Shown here in pieces: positions 19,231 through 24,488 of a stretch of 54,556 bases of DNA. The DNA is from an uncultured Pirellulaceae bacterium (GTDB lineage: Bacteria; Planctomycetota; Planctomycetia; Pirellulales; Pirellulaceae): contig CALHZT010000177.1 in assembly GCA_938040995.1 (NCBI GenBank), positions 1 to 54,556 on the forward strand, written 5' to 3'. Below the pieces are notes generated by a model, which was not told the origin of the DNA, did not search any database, and was given only the letters and a program-made list of their open reading frames with translations. The translations under genes were made by a program, and so were the position numbers. Every line of letters begins with the position of its first letter. Position 1 is the first letter of the stretch.

Positions 19231-20163
19231 ATGCCCATCAATCGACAAACCGCTTCGTTCCTGCAGCAGCGATTCAACGAAGTCGGTATTTACCCCAAAG
19301 GCCGACACGGCCAGAACTTCCTCGTCGATTTGAATCTGGTCGATGTTCTGGTTCGAGCCGCACAACTTGAAAAGCAGGATGTCGTTCTCGAGGTTGGCAC
19401 AGGGACAGGCGCGCTCACCGGACAAATGGCGGCTCAGGCTGGCCACGTTGTGACGATTGAAATCGACCGTCAGCTGCACCAGCTGGCTTCCGAAGAATTG
19501 ATCGACGTGCCCAACGTGACGATGGTGCTACAGGATGTATTGCGGAACAAGAACAACATCCATGACACGATCATTTCCACCGTCGAAGAGCAGTTACAGA
19601 AAATCGAAGGCAGTCGGTTCAAGCTCGCGGCGAACCTGCCGTACAACATTGCAACGCCACTGATATCCAACCTGTTGCTGACTCGCATCACACCGTACTC
19701 GATGACGGTGACGATCCAGAAGGAGCTCGCCGACAGAATTGTCGCGGTGCCAAGAACCAAGGACTATAGTGCACTCAGCATCTGGATCCAGAGTTTGTGC
19801 TCGGCTGAAATCGTTCGCATCATGCCGCCCACGGTTTTCTGGCCTCGCCCCAAAGTCGACTCAGCGATCATTCACATTGTGCCCGACGAAAAAAAGCGGG
19901 CAGCCATTCCTGACATTGCCGCCTATCAGAAATTTGTCCGCTCACTGTTTTTCCATCGACGCAAGTTCCTGCGAAGCGTATTGATCAGTTCCTTCAAGGA
20001 AGAATTGGGGAAACCCGATATCGACCGTATTATGGCAATGGTAAAAATGGGCGCGGAAACGCGAGCCGAAGAATTGCCCGTCGAGAGGATTCTTGAGTTA
20101 TATAATGCGTCTCGGGTTGTCCTCACGGAGTCCGGGAAAATCGACGACTGGAAGTGCCGTTAA
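19231..20163 (+). CDS. rsmA: 16S rRNA (adenine1518-N6/adenine1519-N6)-dimethyltransferase
   Basis: This 310-aa SAM-dependent enzyme (KsgA) dimethylates two adjacent adenines near the 3' end of 16S rRNA during ribosome assembly. It shows GRHGQNFLVD, the SAM-binding LEVGTGTGALTGQMA, the acidic VTIEIDRQL, the catalytic NLPYNIATP and the C-terminal helical lobe with RSLFFHRRKFLRSVL. It is slightly longer than E. coli KsgA because of an insert around NKNNIHDTIISTVEE. It is followed after 24 nt by a 75-aa gene and then by selC. Confidence 0.95.
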   Translation: MPINRQTASFLQQRFNEVGIYPKGRHGQNFLVDLNLVDVLVRAAQLEKQDVVLEVGTGTGALTGQMAAQAGHVVTIEIDRQLHQLASEELIDVPNVTMVLQDVLRNKNNIHDTIISTVEEQLQKIEGSRFKLAANLPYNIATPLISNLLLTRITPYSMTVTIQKELADRIVAVPRTKDYSALSIWIQSLCSAEIVRIMPPTVFWPRPKVDSAIIHIVPDEKKRAAIPDIAAYQKFVRSLFFHRRKFLRSVLISSFKEELGKPDIDRIMAMVKMGAETRAEELPVERILELYNASRVVLTESGKIDDWKCR

Positions 20164-20187
20164 GCCCAAACACTTCGAAAGAAGACC

Positions 20188-20415
20188 ATGCAATTTATTG
20201 AAATGACTGGAAGCACCCTCAAATCACTGCTTTCCAGTGATGAGATGGACGAATCCGAGCTAACCGCGGCTGGCGTCGAGGACACCAGCATTGTTCGAAT
20301 CAACCAACATGGAGATATCGAAGTGCGGCGGCCCGACAGCTGGGATGTTGTTGGCGGGCTCATCGGCGACTTTGCCGAACGTATTACAAAGAACACAGGA
20401 TTTGACTGGGCGTAA
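20188..20415 (+). CDS. Small acidic conserved-looking protein of unknown function
   Basis: This 75-aa protein begins MQFIEMTGSTLKSLL, has a charged middle (SSDEMDESELTAAGVED), a short strand segment (SIVRINQHGDIEVR) and ends near NTGFDWA with TAA. It has no signal peptide or membrane segment. AGAAGA precedes the ATG. It lies 24 nt after rsmA and 19 nt before the tRNA-Sec gene, so it probably shares the rsmA transcript. I do not recognise the family. Confidence 0.65.
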   Translation: MQFIEMTGSTLKSLLSSDEMDESELTAAGVEDTSIVRINQHGDIEVRRPDSWDVVGGLIGDFAERITKNTGFDWA

Positions 20416-20434
20416 TTGCGTTCAGTCTGCCTAA

Positions 20435-20531
20435 GGAAGTGCTTGCTCGTCTGGTGGCGGCCGCGGTCTTCAAAACCGTTGGGACCTGCGTCAAACGCTG
20501 GTTCGGTGGGTTCGATTCCCATGCACTTCCG
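20435..20531 (+). tRNA. selC: tRNA-Sec (anticodon UCA)
   Basis: This 97-nt gene has the selenocysteine-tRNA architecture. The acceptor stem is 8 bp (GGAAGTGC with GCACTTCC) with discriminator G. The anticodon loop is CTTCAAA with TCA, on a 5-bp stem. The long extra arm is ACCTGCG/CGCTGGT, and the T arm is GTGGG-TTCGATT-CCCAT. The D region (GCTCGTCTGGTGGCGGC) resembles E. coli selC. CCA is not encoded. Its presence implies that the organism reads certain UGA codons as selenocysteine and should carry selA, selB and selD elsewhere. No selenoprotein or SECIS was recognised in this window. Confidence 0.95.
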
Positions 20532-20897: not shown

Positions 20898-23800
20898 ATG
20901 CCTACAAGAAAGCCGAACAGTCTGGTGAGACGCTCGGCTGGAGTGACTTCGTTGCTCGATAGACTATCTCCCCCGCCACCAGTCGCCGTCGACTTTGTCG
21001 AGCGATTGCGTCAACTTTCCGCCGACTGGCCGGAACGTATTGCGTATACCTATCTGGTAGACGGGGAAGACCGCGAACTTGTCTATACATACAGCGAGCT
21101 CGACCGGCGGGCGCGAGCCATTGGCCAGCGACTGATCGACATGGGCATGACCGGTGAGCGTGCCTTGCTACTCTTCCCTCCCGGGCTGGACTTTGTAAGC
21201 ACGATCTTTGGTTGCTTTTACGCAGGCGTTGTCGCCGTGCCGGCTTTCCCGCCCAGGCGTAACCGCAATATGGCTCGCATTGAAGCCATCTCAAAAGACG
21301 CTCAGGCCAAAGTGGCCATTACGATCGACGACCACATTCAGCGAGTCGCAAGGTTCTCCGACGATGCGCCTGAATTGCAAACACTCGAATGGATTGCCGC
21401 AGACAAGATCGAAGTCGGCGACGCCGACGACTGGAAACGGCCAAATTTTGACTCGGAGTCGCTGGCGGTTCTCCAGTACACGTCCGGTTCGACGGGCAAG
21501 CCGAAGGGCGTCATGCTGACGCATGGCAATTTGATCCGGAATTGCCAGTACATCACACATGCTTTCGGTGCCAAGCCGCACGATGTTGGCATGTCCTGGC
21601 TGCCGGCTTACCACGACATGGGCCTGATTGGGGGCATCCTCAATCCGATCTACATTTCATGCACCAACGTGCTGATGTCCCCCGTGGCATTCCTGCAAAA
21701 TCCACTGCGCTGGATGAAGGCGGTCACCAAGTACAAAGTCTCGATTTCTGGCGGCCCCAATTTCGCCTACGACTACTGCACCAAAAAAGTCGCCGAGGAA
21801 GACCTCAACGATCTGAATCTGGAATCGTGGGCAGTCGCATATAACGGCGCGGAACCTGTTCGCGACTCAACGATCGAAGAGTTCATTCGCAAGTTTGGTC
21901 CGTGCGGATTCAGGCGTGAAGCGTTCTACCCCTGCTACGGCATGGCCGAGTCGACGTTGATGATCACGGGCGGCCACCGCGACGAATCGCCAGTTTCGCG
22001 TGCATTCGAATCGGCCAGCCTCGACATTCAGGTTGTCAAACCGGCCTCCGCGAGCGACAGGCATTCCCGACGACTGGTCGCTTGCGGCAAGCAGCCACCG
22101 AACGGGACGGTTCTCGTTGTCGATCCAGACAAGATGACCCGGTGTGCGCCGGATGAGATCGGCGAGATCTGGGTTTCCAGCCCGAGCGTCGGTATCGGCT
22201 ATTTCAACAAGCCGGTAGAGACACAAGAAACGTTCCAGGCACAACTGATTGACGGCAGTCGCGAAACATTTCTGCGAACGGGCGACCTCGGGTTTTGGCG
22301 CGATGGCCAGCTGTTCGTTACGGGACGCATCAAGGATCTGATCACCATTCGTGGCGTCAATCGCTACCCGCAAGATATCGAGATGACGGTTGAACAGTCG
22401 GACAAGCGACTTCGCACCGGCGCGGCGGCGGCTTTCGCTGTTGAAATCGACGGTCGCGAGCAGCTGATCATTGTCAGCGAAGCCGAACGGGTGAAAGAAA
22501 ACAACTGGGACGAAGTCATCAGTGCCATCCGGCGTGATGTTACGCGAGTCCACGAGCTTGCCCCGGATGGTATTATCCTGATCCGCACGGGTTCAATCCC
22601 CAAAACATCGAGCGGAAAAATTCAGCGGCATGCGTGTCGAAACGGATTCCAGGATGACAGCCTGCTGATTATTGCCAAATGGTTCAGGCCAGAAGAGGAA
22701 TCGCCTGAGATGCAGCCGAATGGATATCATGCGGTCGGCGGAAAGAATGGCCATCCCGCCGTGAATGGAAATGGACAGAACGGCTCTGGCCGTTCCAGCA
22801 TTCACAGCAACGGCCACACCAACGTTCACAACAATGGCCAGCACCACCCCGCGACAAACGGCAGCAACGGTTCGCCAGGCAGCCTGTCCAACGGTCAACG
22901 ATCAAGATTGCAGATTGTCTTCAACACGGTGCGTAGCATCGCCCAGGATCGAGCCGGCAATCTTACCGCAGAAACAAACATCCTTGATCTTGGACTCGAC
23001 TCGCTTGAGCGACTGGAAATCGTAAGCCGCCTGGAAGATCACTTTGGTGGTTCCTTCCCGGAATACGTGCTGCAGGAGATGGAAACCTGCCAACAAGTCG
23101 CAGCGGCTGTCGAAACTCACCTGATTCCTTTCACGGAAGGTCGGGACAACGCCGTTGAGACATCGGCCTATCGCTTCGAAGAGTTTGCCGAATTCAAACG
23201 ACTGGAGCAGTCCAAAGAAGCACTGGCATCCACGGGGCTCGGCAATCCATACTTTCCGGTCCATAGCGGGACGGCTCGCGACACGACAACGATCGACGGC
23301 CGCAGCTATATCAACTTCGCCAGCTACAACTACATCGGCATGTCTGGCGACCCTGCTGTCAACGCGAGTACAGCCGCAGCCGTCGAGCAGTTCGGAACCA
23401 GCTGCTCTGCCAGCCGTCTGGTGTCTGGTGAAAAACAGATTCATCGCGAACTCGAAAAAGAGATCGCCGATTTTCTTGGCGTAGACGACTCGATTACCTT
23501 CGTTGGCGGACACGCGACCAACCAGACAACGATCGGCCATCTGGTCGAAGCCGGCGACCTGATCATTCACGACTCGTTGGCCCACAACAGCATCGTTCAG
23601 GGAGCCATTTTGTCCGGGGCACGCCGCCGGCAGTTCCCACACAACGACTGGAACAGCCTTGACCAGATCCTGACAACACAACGATCCAGGTTTCGCCGCG
23701 TGCTTGTCGCCATCGAAGGCGCATACAGCATGGACGGTGACTATCCGGACCTGGCGAAATTCGTCGACATCAAGGAACGCCACAAAGCGTTGCTCATGGT

Positions 23801-24488
23801 CGACGAAGCCCATTCGCTCGGCACGATGGGTGCCACAGGAAGAGGAATTAGCGAGTTTGCAAACGTCGATACCTCGCGAGTCGACATCTGGATGGGGACT
23901 CTCAGTAAGTCGCTGGGAAGTTGCGGTGGCTACATCGCCGGCTCGAAACCTCTTGTCGAGTTGCTGCGTTATACCGCCCCTGGCTTTGTTTACAGCGTCG
24001 GACTCTCTCCACCAGATACAGCTGCGGCACTCGCGGCTTTACGAGAACTGAAGCGTCACCCCGAACGGGTGATCAAGTGCCAAAAAAACGCTGAGCTATT
24101 CTTGCGACTTGCTCGCGAAGCCGGCCTGGACACGGGAGCGAGCGGAAGCACACCAATCGTGCCCGTCATCCTCGGAAACTCTGTGAAGTGTCTCTGGCTC
24201 TCTCAGAAGCTCTTTGAGCGTGGTATCAATGTCCAGCCAATCATGTATCCAGCCGTTGCAGAAGCTGAATCACGATTGAGATTCTTCATCACGTCAGAGC
24301 ATTCGGTCGAGCAGATCAGGCAGACAGTGGATGCCATGAGGGAATTGCTACCGGGGTTTTCCGAATTCGTTGCCGGGAATGAATTGCGGATGGACCAGGC
24401 GGCAACTAGTCTGAAAGGACGGGTAAACGGATTCGGCAATTCCGTCAAGACAAGTCAACAGGCTGGCGGTTACGAAACCGAAGCGTAG
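20898..24488 (+). CDS. Fatty acyl-AMP ligase / acyl carrier / alpha-oxoamine synthase fusion protein
   Basis: This 1196-aa protein joins three enzymes. Residues ~30-600 are an adenylating ligase of the fatty acyl-AMP ligase type (YTSGSTGKPKG at 194, WLPAYHDMGLIGG, PCYGMAESTL, FLRTGDLGF, IRGVNRYPQDIE). A ~65-residue linker rich in N, G and H follows. Next is an acyl carrier domain whose phosphopantetheine Ser702 sits in LGLDSLERLE. Residues ~770-1160 form a PLP-dependent alpha-oxoamine synthase (SPT/BioF/KBL family) with VDEAHSLGTMG and Lys1004 in TLSKSLGSCGG. The likely chemistry is to activate a fatty acid, load it on the carrier and condense it with an amino acid, giving a long-chain amino ketone. 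This is inferred; product and amino acid are unknown. Serine palmitoyltransferase-like sphingoid synthesis is one candidate. Confidence 0.9.
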   Translation: MPTRKPNSLVRRSAGVTSLLDRLSPPPPVAVDFVERLRQLSADWPERIAYTYLVDGEDRELVYTYSELDRRARAIGQRLIDMGMTGERALLLFPPGLDFVSTIFGCFYAGVVAVPAFPPRRNRNMARIEAISKDAQAKVAITIDDHIQRVARFSDDAPELQTLEWIAADKIEVGDADDWKRPNFDSESLAVLQYTSGSTGKPKGVMLTHGNLIRNCQYITHAFGAKPHDVGMSWLPAYHDMGLIGGILNPIYISCTNVLMSPVAFLQNPLRWMKAVTKYKVSISGGPNFAYDYCTKKVAEEDLNDLNLESWAVAYNGAEPVRDSTIEEFIRKFGPCGFRREAFYPCYGMAESTLMITGGHRDESPVSRAFESASLDIQVVKPASASDRHSRRLVACGKQPPNGTVLVVDPDKMTRCAPDEIGEIWVSSPSVGIGYFNKPVETQETFQAQLIDGSRETFLRTGDLGFWRDGQLFVTGRIKDLITIRGVNRYPQDIEMTVEQSDKRLRTGAAAAFAVEIDGREQLIIVSEAERVKENNWDEVISAIRRDVTRVHELAPDGIILIRTGSIPKTSSGKIQRHACRNGFQDDSLLIIAKWFRPEEESPEMQPNGYHAVGGKNGHPAVNGNGQNGSGRSSIHSNGHTNVHNNGQHHPATNGSNGSPGSLSNGQRSRLQIVFNTVRSIAQDRAGNLTAETNILDLGLDSLERLEIVSRLEDHFGGSFPEYVLQEMETCQQVAAAVETHLIPFTEGRDNAVETSAYRFEEFAEFKRLEQSKEALASTGLGNPYFPVHSGTARDTTTIDGRSYINFASYNYIGMSGDPAVNASTAAAVEQFGTSCSASRLVSGEKQIHRELEKEIADFLGVDDSITFVGGHATNQTTIGHLVEAGDLIIHDSLAHNSIVQGAILSGARRRQFPHNDWNSLDQILTTQRSRFRRVLVAIEGAYSMDGDYPDLAKFVDIKERHKALLMVDEAHSLGTMGATGRGISEFANVDTSRVDIWMGTLSKSLGSCGGYIAGSKPLVELLRYTAPGFVYSVGLSPPDTAAALAALRELKRHPERVIKCQKNAELFLRLAREAGLDTGASGSTPIVPVILGNSVKCLWLSQKLFERGINVQPIMYPAVAEAESRLRFFITSEHSVEQIRQTVDAMRELLPGFSEFVAGNELRMDQAATSLKGRVNGFGNSVKTSQQAGGYETEA

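Follow-up and report, generated by a model that had tools for sequence, protein, structure and literature searches.

What does a protein make that joins, in a single chain, the means to activate a fatty acid, to carry it and to condense it with an amino acid, when no other biosynthetic gene stands beside its own? This question is raised by a gene on contig CALHZT010000177.1 of an uncultured Pirellulaceae bacterium (54,556 nucleotides, the whole of which is referred to below as the window), which encodes a fatty acyl-AMP ligase (FAAL), an acyl carrier protein (ACP) and a pyridoxal-phosphate (PLP)-dependent alpha-oxoamine synthase (AOAS) fused in that order. The answer favoured here, with a probability of roughly 0.6, is that the fusion is a single-chain, acyl-ACP-dependent long-chain-base synthase whose product is taken on to a ceramide-like lipid by aca and CerR genes located elsewhere.

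A preliminary description of the locus had proposed three fused domains with intact active sites, and all of these (YTSGSTGKPKG at residues 194-204, Ser702 and Lys1004) are confirmed in the reading frame of 1196 amino acids. The protein has four Pfam matches, each exceeding its curated cut-off: AMP-binding at residues 42-436 (E 8e-65), a DIP2-like AMP C-domain at 480-593, PP-binding at 678-738 (E 8e-9) and Aminotran_1_2 at 804-1146 (E 2e-45). The closest solved structures to the ligase part are those of FAALs, a kind that loads carrier domains, namely 7r7e (575 bits, E 1e-171) and 3kxw from Legionella (461 bits), and the best of the FAAL models, PRK05850, reaches 425 bits, which is under its 775-bit subfamily cut-off; on its AMP-binding core and FAAL-like sequence, this part is classed as FAAL-like. 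The carrier serine lies within LDLGLDSLERLEIVS and the PLP lysine within GTLSKSLGS.

Of 40 sampled genomes from the window's own family and order (Pirellulales), 33 encode the same one-chain FAAL-ACP-AOAS protein at ~46-57% identity; because the architecture recurs in this way, an artefact of sequencing or assembly can be rejected. The architecture search suggested in the preliminary description thus turned up the same fusion in most relatives, and the rarity implied there does not hold, the fusion being near-universal in the order. Across 39 full-length orthologues Ser702, Lys1004, H896, D969, H972, S839, R840 and R1128 are invariant, and residue 201 alone varies within the AMP-binding motif. 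The N/G/H-rich linker, which had been read as meaningful, fared less well: between FAAL and ACP the orthologues have 26-171 amino acids of unrelated sequence, and the richness, real as it is, is peculiar to the window's genome, so the linker was rejected as a meaningful feature.

The AOAS domain has the residues that define the superfamily (K1004, the PLP lysine; D969, the Asp facing the pyridine nitrogen; H972 and H896, which contact the ring; and R1128, the Arg for the carboxylate), and it scores below the models of each of its familiar kinds: the NCBIfam ones for serine palmitoyltransferase (SPT) by a wide margin (NF047600, 290 against a cut-off of 640; NF047599, 273 against 500; NF047603, 212 against 670) and those for BioF, KBL and ALAS as well (TIGR00858, 342 against 426; NF005394, 302 against 460; TIGR01821, 251 against 339). 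Identity as BioF, KBL or ALAS was rejected on these cut-offs, on phylogeny and on the presence of separate copies in the genome. Structural comparison is less discriminating. In sequence the domain matches all kinds of AOAS, best of all SmSPT, the Sphingobacterium enzyme (3a2b/8guh), which shares its fold and catalytic residues and is among the best PDB matches in structure as well as in sequence; in fold KBL and SmSPT match equally well, with 31% identity. An AlphaFold model of the ACP-AOAS part (pLDDT 73, weak in the linker region) confirms the AOAS fold and, compared with known folds, does not tell SPT apart from KBL or ALAS. Residue S839 is as in SPT and BioF, where ALAS has Thr, which is suggestive at most for the use of L-serine with a long-chain acyl thioester.

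Phylogeny places the domain more closely. In a maximum likelihood tree of 80 AOAS domains, whose bootstraps had yet to converge completely and which includes several long reference rows, the fusion AOAS falls at 100/100 into a clade (grouping with loci L123, L128 and L129, AOAS of RkpA-type PKS and capsule clusters) that includes planctomycete single chains ending a polyketide synthase (PKS) in an AOAS, a more distant ligase-ACP-AOAS family from other parts of the phylum, and AOAS encoded as separate proteins on plasmids of Pseudomonas and Shinella and in one Methylococcaceae metagenome-assembled genome (MAG). A second tree recovers the same clade, with the SPTs separate in their own group at 99/94. 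The standalone members lie directly after an RkpA-type PKS amid capsule genes, as in the rkp-1 capsule-lipid clusters, and the fusion AOAS is up to 56% identical to AOAS of this type; because RkpG of S. meliloti itself was not compared, the label RkpG-type rests on the gene context of the clade members. On this evidence the fusion AOAS is assigned to the RkpG-type clade and not to SPT, BioF, KBL or ALAS. A place within the SPT/BioF/KBL/CqsA phylogeny had been anticipated; the domain belongs to none of these, and its actual clade was unforeseen. Acyl-ACP is the expected substrate of both the RkpG-type enzymes and the fusion, but the former are standalone proteins fed by an RkpA-type PKS, whereas the latter has its FAAL and ACP attached, and no adjacent RkpA-type PKS, RkpH short-chain dehydrogenase/reductase (SDR) or capsule genes are conserved at the fusion loci.

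Related chains combine these domains in other ways. The single-chain PKS-AOAS proteins of the clade have the orders KS-AT-DH-ER-KR-ACP-AOAS and FAAL-ACP-KS-AT-ACP-AOAS, and the second of these, found in another planctomycete (L150:6153-12284, minus strand) next to an O-methyltransferase gene, amounts to the same enzyme with an inserted PKS module. In three Pirellulales loci (L061, L062 and L144) a single-chain PKS ends in an RkpG-type AOAS, which is to say that RkpA and RkpG are fused; at L144 a gene for a phosphopantetheinyl transferase (PPTase) lies just upstream. One further ligase-ACP-AOAS fusion (L140:7624-10950, minus strand), encoded beside an MMPL-type transporter, has an AOAS of a different clade, and another (L147:7744-11001, minus strand) has a ligase without the DIP2-like C-domain, which suggests that the ligase-ACP-AOAS fusion arose more than once. 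The FAALs at the head of lipo-PKS and nonribosomal peptide synthetase (NRPS) systems, such as 7r7e and 3kxw, are likewise followed by a carrier domain, but in the fusion the acyl chain would pass straight to the AOAS without an intervening KS or C domain. Carrier and AOAS are also fused in a PigH-like protein of a prodigiosin-like cluster (assigned by context) on a Methylocystis plasmid, but there the AOAS is of a different clade, no FAAL is in the chain and the partner is a PKS. The swf sponge PKS family is without this AOAS. On a Legionella lytica plasmid (L136:5908-10779) an AOAS stands beside phosphosulfolactate synthase and phosphatase genes, possibly a sulfonolipid-type pathway.

In the pathway proposed for the fusion, the FAAL domain would adenylate a free fatty acid to acyl-AMP and then hand the acyl group on to the internal ACP, where Ser702 would bear the phosphopantetheine arm; this loading would require a PPTase. 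The AOAS domain, through the aldimine at Lys1004, would condense acyl-S-ACP with an amino acid, releasing CO2 and yielding a 2-amino-3-ketone, for instance 3-keto-sphinganine. The amino acid is probably serine, with alanine or glycine also compatible. An acyltransferase of the aca/YghO (bCerS-type) kind, encoded elsewhere, would N-acylate the amino ketone, and a CerR-type reductase, also encoded elsewhere, would reduce the N-acylated product to a dihydroceramide-like lipid. The architecture, the conserved active sites, the AOAS phylogeny, the co-occurrence and the gene adjacency are read from the sequence here; the enzyme activities, the amino-acid substrate, the chain length and the final lipid are those to be expected of the families concerned. 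The self-contained route from fatty acid to amino ketone that had been suggested earlier is thus implied by the anatomy, and that interpretation as a whole is partly supported.

The same three activities occur in the sphingolipid operon of Caulobacter crescentus and E. coli BL21 as an acyl-ACP synthetase (AasR), a dedicated ACP (AcpR) and a PLP-dependent condensing enzyme (Spt). In Rhodobacteria these are jointly needed for 3-oxo-sphinganine, and dihydroceramide needs in addition the epimerase/dehydrogenase epi (E. coli ECD_02852) and aca (yghO, ECD_02850) (PMC9386255). The fusion is most likely a one-chain equivalent of AasR, AcpR and Spt. Homologues of aca/YghO, and putative ones of epi/CerR, are likewise present in the fusion genomes, but the fusion is one polypeptide encoded by a solitary gene, its downstream genes are unlinked, and its AOAS is in a different clade from E. 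coli Spt, to which it is 35% identical.

Nearly all genomes with the fusion also encode, at other loci, candidates for the later steps of sphingolipid synthesis. A search with YghO of E. coli BL21, the product of aca and the N-acyltransferase that forms ceramide, finds a full-length homologue in 37 of the 40 Pirellulales genomes, mostly at 31-38% identity; the window's own genome is among the 37 (G000:C269:11168-12265; 29% over 363 residues, E 7e-46). All three aca-negative genomes (G026, G029 and G036) are without the fusion, and the table of fusion against aca (33/0/4/3) gives a Fisher p of 0.0035, with shared ancestry not corrected for. Nine genomes of another family in the same class (f18) have neither aca nor the RkpG-type AOAS clade. 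A CerR-like reductase gene adjoins aca in 6 of 20 Pirellulales loci examined, the own genome's among them with weak similarity, and by coordinates in further genomes; in one genome (G001) an ACP-AOAS of the fusion's clade lies divergently next to aca. The co-occurrence of the fusion with aca/YghO and CerR homologues lends independent support to the earlier suggestion of a sphingoid-like product.

The inventory of other AOAS points in the same direction. In the window's own genome an orthologous spt was not found, and the AOAS other than the fusion are BioF (463 bits, cut-off 426) and KBL (650, cut-off 460). G011, which is complete, and G023 have aca and, as their only AOAS, a BioF-type copy and the fusion; like the rest of the 12 genomes tested for it, these two also have bioB, so that the BioF-type copy is required for biotin synthesis and only the fusion is left as a candidate to supply aca in them. 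Among other planctomycetes aca is common, with an AOAS no more than 3 kb away in 34 of 74 genomes, and 9 of 10 such aca-adjacent AOAS tested (L219-L228) group with the true SPTs at 99/94. By this grouping other planctomycetes carry the classical pair of SPT and aca, whereas the aca of Pirellulales, as far as examined, is without a true SPT. The chances are about even that in Pirellulales the classical SPT has been displaced by an RkpG-type AOAS inside the FAAL-ACP-AOAS chain, which would supply the long-chain base of an undescribed, order-wide, ceramide-like membrane lipid.

A number of observations weigh against a role in ceramide synthesis. The co-occurrence of fusion and aca inside one order is partly shared ancestry and is weak evidence alone, although the anatomy, the AOAS inventory, the adjacency in G001 and the contrast with the SPT-bearing planctomycetes add to it. 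The AOAS domain falls outside the clade of SPTs and scores under every SPT cut-off; in none of the genomes seen does aca lie close to the fusion; and four genomes (G022, G024, G025 and G009) have aca and no intact fusion, with another AOAS beside aca in G025. CerR homology is weak and its superfamily broad: the CerR-like open reading frame (ORF) divergent from aca in the own genome is weakly similar (30%), a search of that genome gave no CerR match below 1e-12, the aca-negative G026 nevertheless has a CerR-like gene, and in G018 a CerR-like SDR gene adjoins a BioF-type AOAS, which is a caution for the pairing of fusion and aca. The window's own MAG, which is 86.5% complete, yielded no PPTase; one is present in 24 of 25 genomes of the sample, and its absence is probably a gap in the assembly. 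We know of no experimental report of Pirellulales ceramides. Finally, beyond Pirellulales the RkpG-type clade occurs in genomes that lack aca (7 in the phylum sample); its link to ceramide synthesis is therefore not general, and the anchoring of a capsule, or some other function, has to be taken seriously as an alternative.

The amino ketone might anchor or carry a surface polysaccharide as its lipid part, the role proposed for the rhizobial RkpA-RkpG-RkpH system, and be no ceramide precursor. The capsule, LTA-synthase and SDR genes beside the PKS-linked clade members of Pseudomonas, Shinella and Methylococcaceae speak for such a role, but the fusion lacks conserved capsule, PKS or SDR neighbours and the co-occurrence with aca is near-perfect, which makes it unlikely. 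More doubtful still is a dedicated secondary metabolite or signal (a free amino ketone, a 1-deoxy base or a derived heterocycle), of which the PKS-AOAS proteins would make longer versions: the same AOAS clade does terminate single-chain PKSs, but the fusion is found almost throughout the order and always without tailoring genes, so a core lipid is to be expected over a strain-specific product, and the co-occurrence with aca again runs counter to it. It is improbable that the partner of aca is some other AOAS, such as the BioF-type enzyme of G018 with its CerR-like neighbour, and the fusion unrelated to ceramides, in that BioF-type AOAS are found in the three aca-negative genomes too, the own-genome copy exceeds the BioF cut-off, and the presence of BioB in every genome tested means that BioF is required.

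Table 1. Features of the fused gene. Residues follow the numbering of the fusion protein here and throughout; positions are those of the whole stretch.
Feature	Position	Strand	Basis
FAAL-ACP-AOAS fused gene	20898..24488	+	one ORF, ATG start, 1196 aa, no internal stop; relatives 33/40
Fatty acyl-AMP ligase (FAAL) domain, residues 42-593	21021..22676	+	PF00501, PF23024; FAAL structures 7r7e, 3kxw
AMP-binding motif YTSGSTGKPKG, residues 194-204	21477..21509	+	invariant in 39 orthologues except residue 201
N/G/H/S-rich linker, residues 600-671	22695..22910	+	differs between orthologues
Acyl carrier protein domain, residues 678-738	22929..23111	+	PF00550
Carrier Ser702 codon (phosphopantetheine site)	23001..23003	+	motif position, invariant in orthologues
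AOAS domain, RkpG-type clade, residues ~765-1160	23190..24377	+	PF00155 804-1146, trees, fold match to KBL/SPT/ALAS structures
PLP Lys1004 codon	23907..23909	+	alignment; invariant in orthologues

The genomic setting of the fusion is consistent with a solitary gene. In 30 loci inspected there is no conserved same-strand biosynthetic neighbour and no lipid operon; ksgA lies upstream, and downstream, in many genomes, come a convergent outer-membrane-type gene, an unannotated gene and a TIM-barrel gene. These neighbours are housekeeping or structural genes in unrelated synteny, and a biosynthetic operon was accordingly rejected. The solitary location noted in the preliminary description therefore stands, but it gives no support for the product outside the standard pathways that had been drawn from it: the genes that probably act downstream lie elsewhere in the same genomes. 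Between ksgA and the fusion gene is a tRNA-Sec gene (anticodon TCA; 20435-20531, plus strand), to which a called minus-strand ORF (20160-20522) is antisense. The own genome also encodes, on contig C246 (L141:9031-11379, minus strand), a second FAAL-ACP protein, which is standalone, 783 amino acids long, 44% identical and without an AOAS.

A search of an open-access library, on FAAL-AOAS fusions and on SPT or FAAL in Planctomycetes, brought up no description of a FAAL-ACP-AOAS protein, subscription papers being outside its scope. A study of Black Sea sphingolipids reported 138 Planctomycetota MAGs with Spt-like proteins, and it noted matches inside longer proteins, of which the matched AOAS part alone was analysed (PMC11334938). 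What is new here is the one-chain arrangement of known activities and, probably, the displacement of SPT by another AOAS clade.

The fusion bears on the question of which bacteria beyond Bacteroidetes and Proteobacteria make sphingolipids. Other bacteria split activation, carrier loading and condensation over three proteins, whereas the fusion holds all three, and a solitary one-chain synthase in an abundant aquatic order with cultured members offers a single-gene test for planctomycete sphingolipids. If the proposal is right, the fusion would be a compact enzyme that makes an amino ketone from a free fatty acid and an amino acid, and the unexplained rhizobial capsule-lipid enzyme RkpG would be tied to long-chain-base chemistry. 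The fusion may be how the abundant aquatic Pirellulales make ceramide-like lipids.

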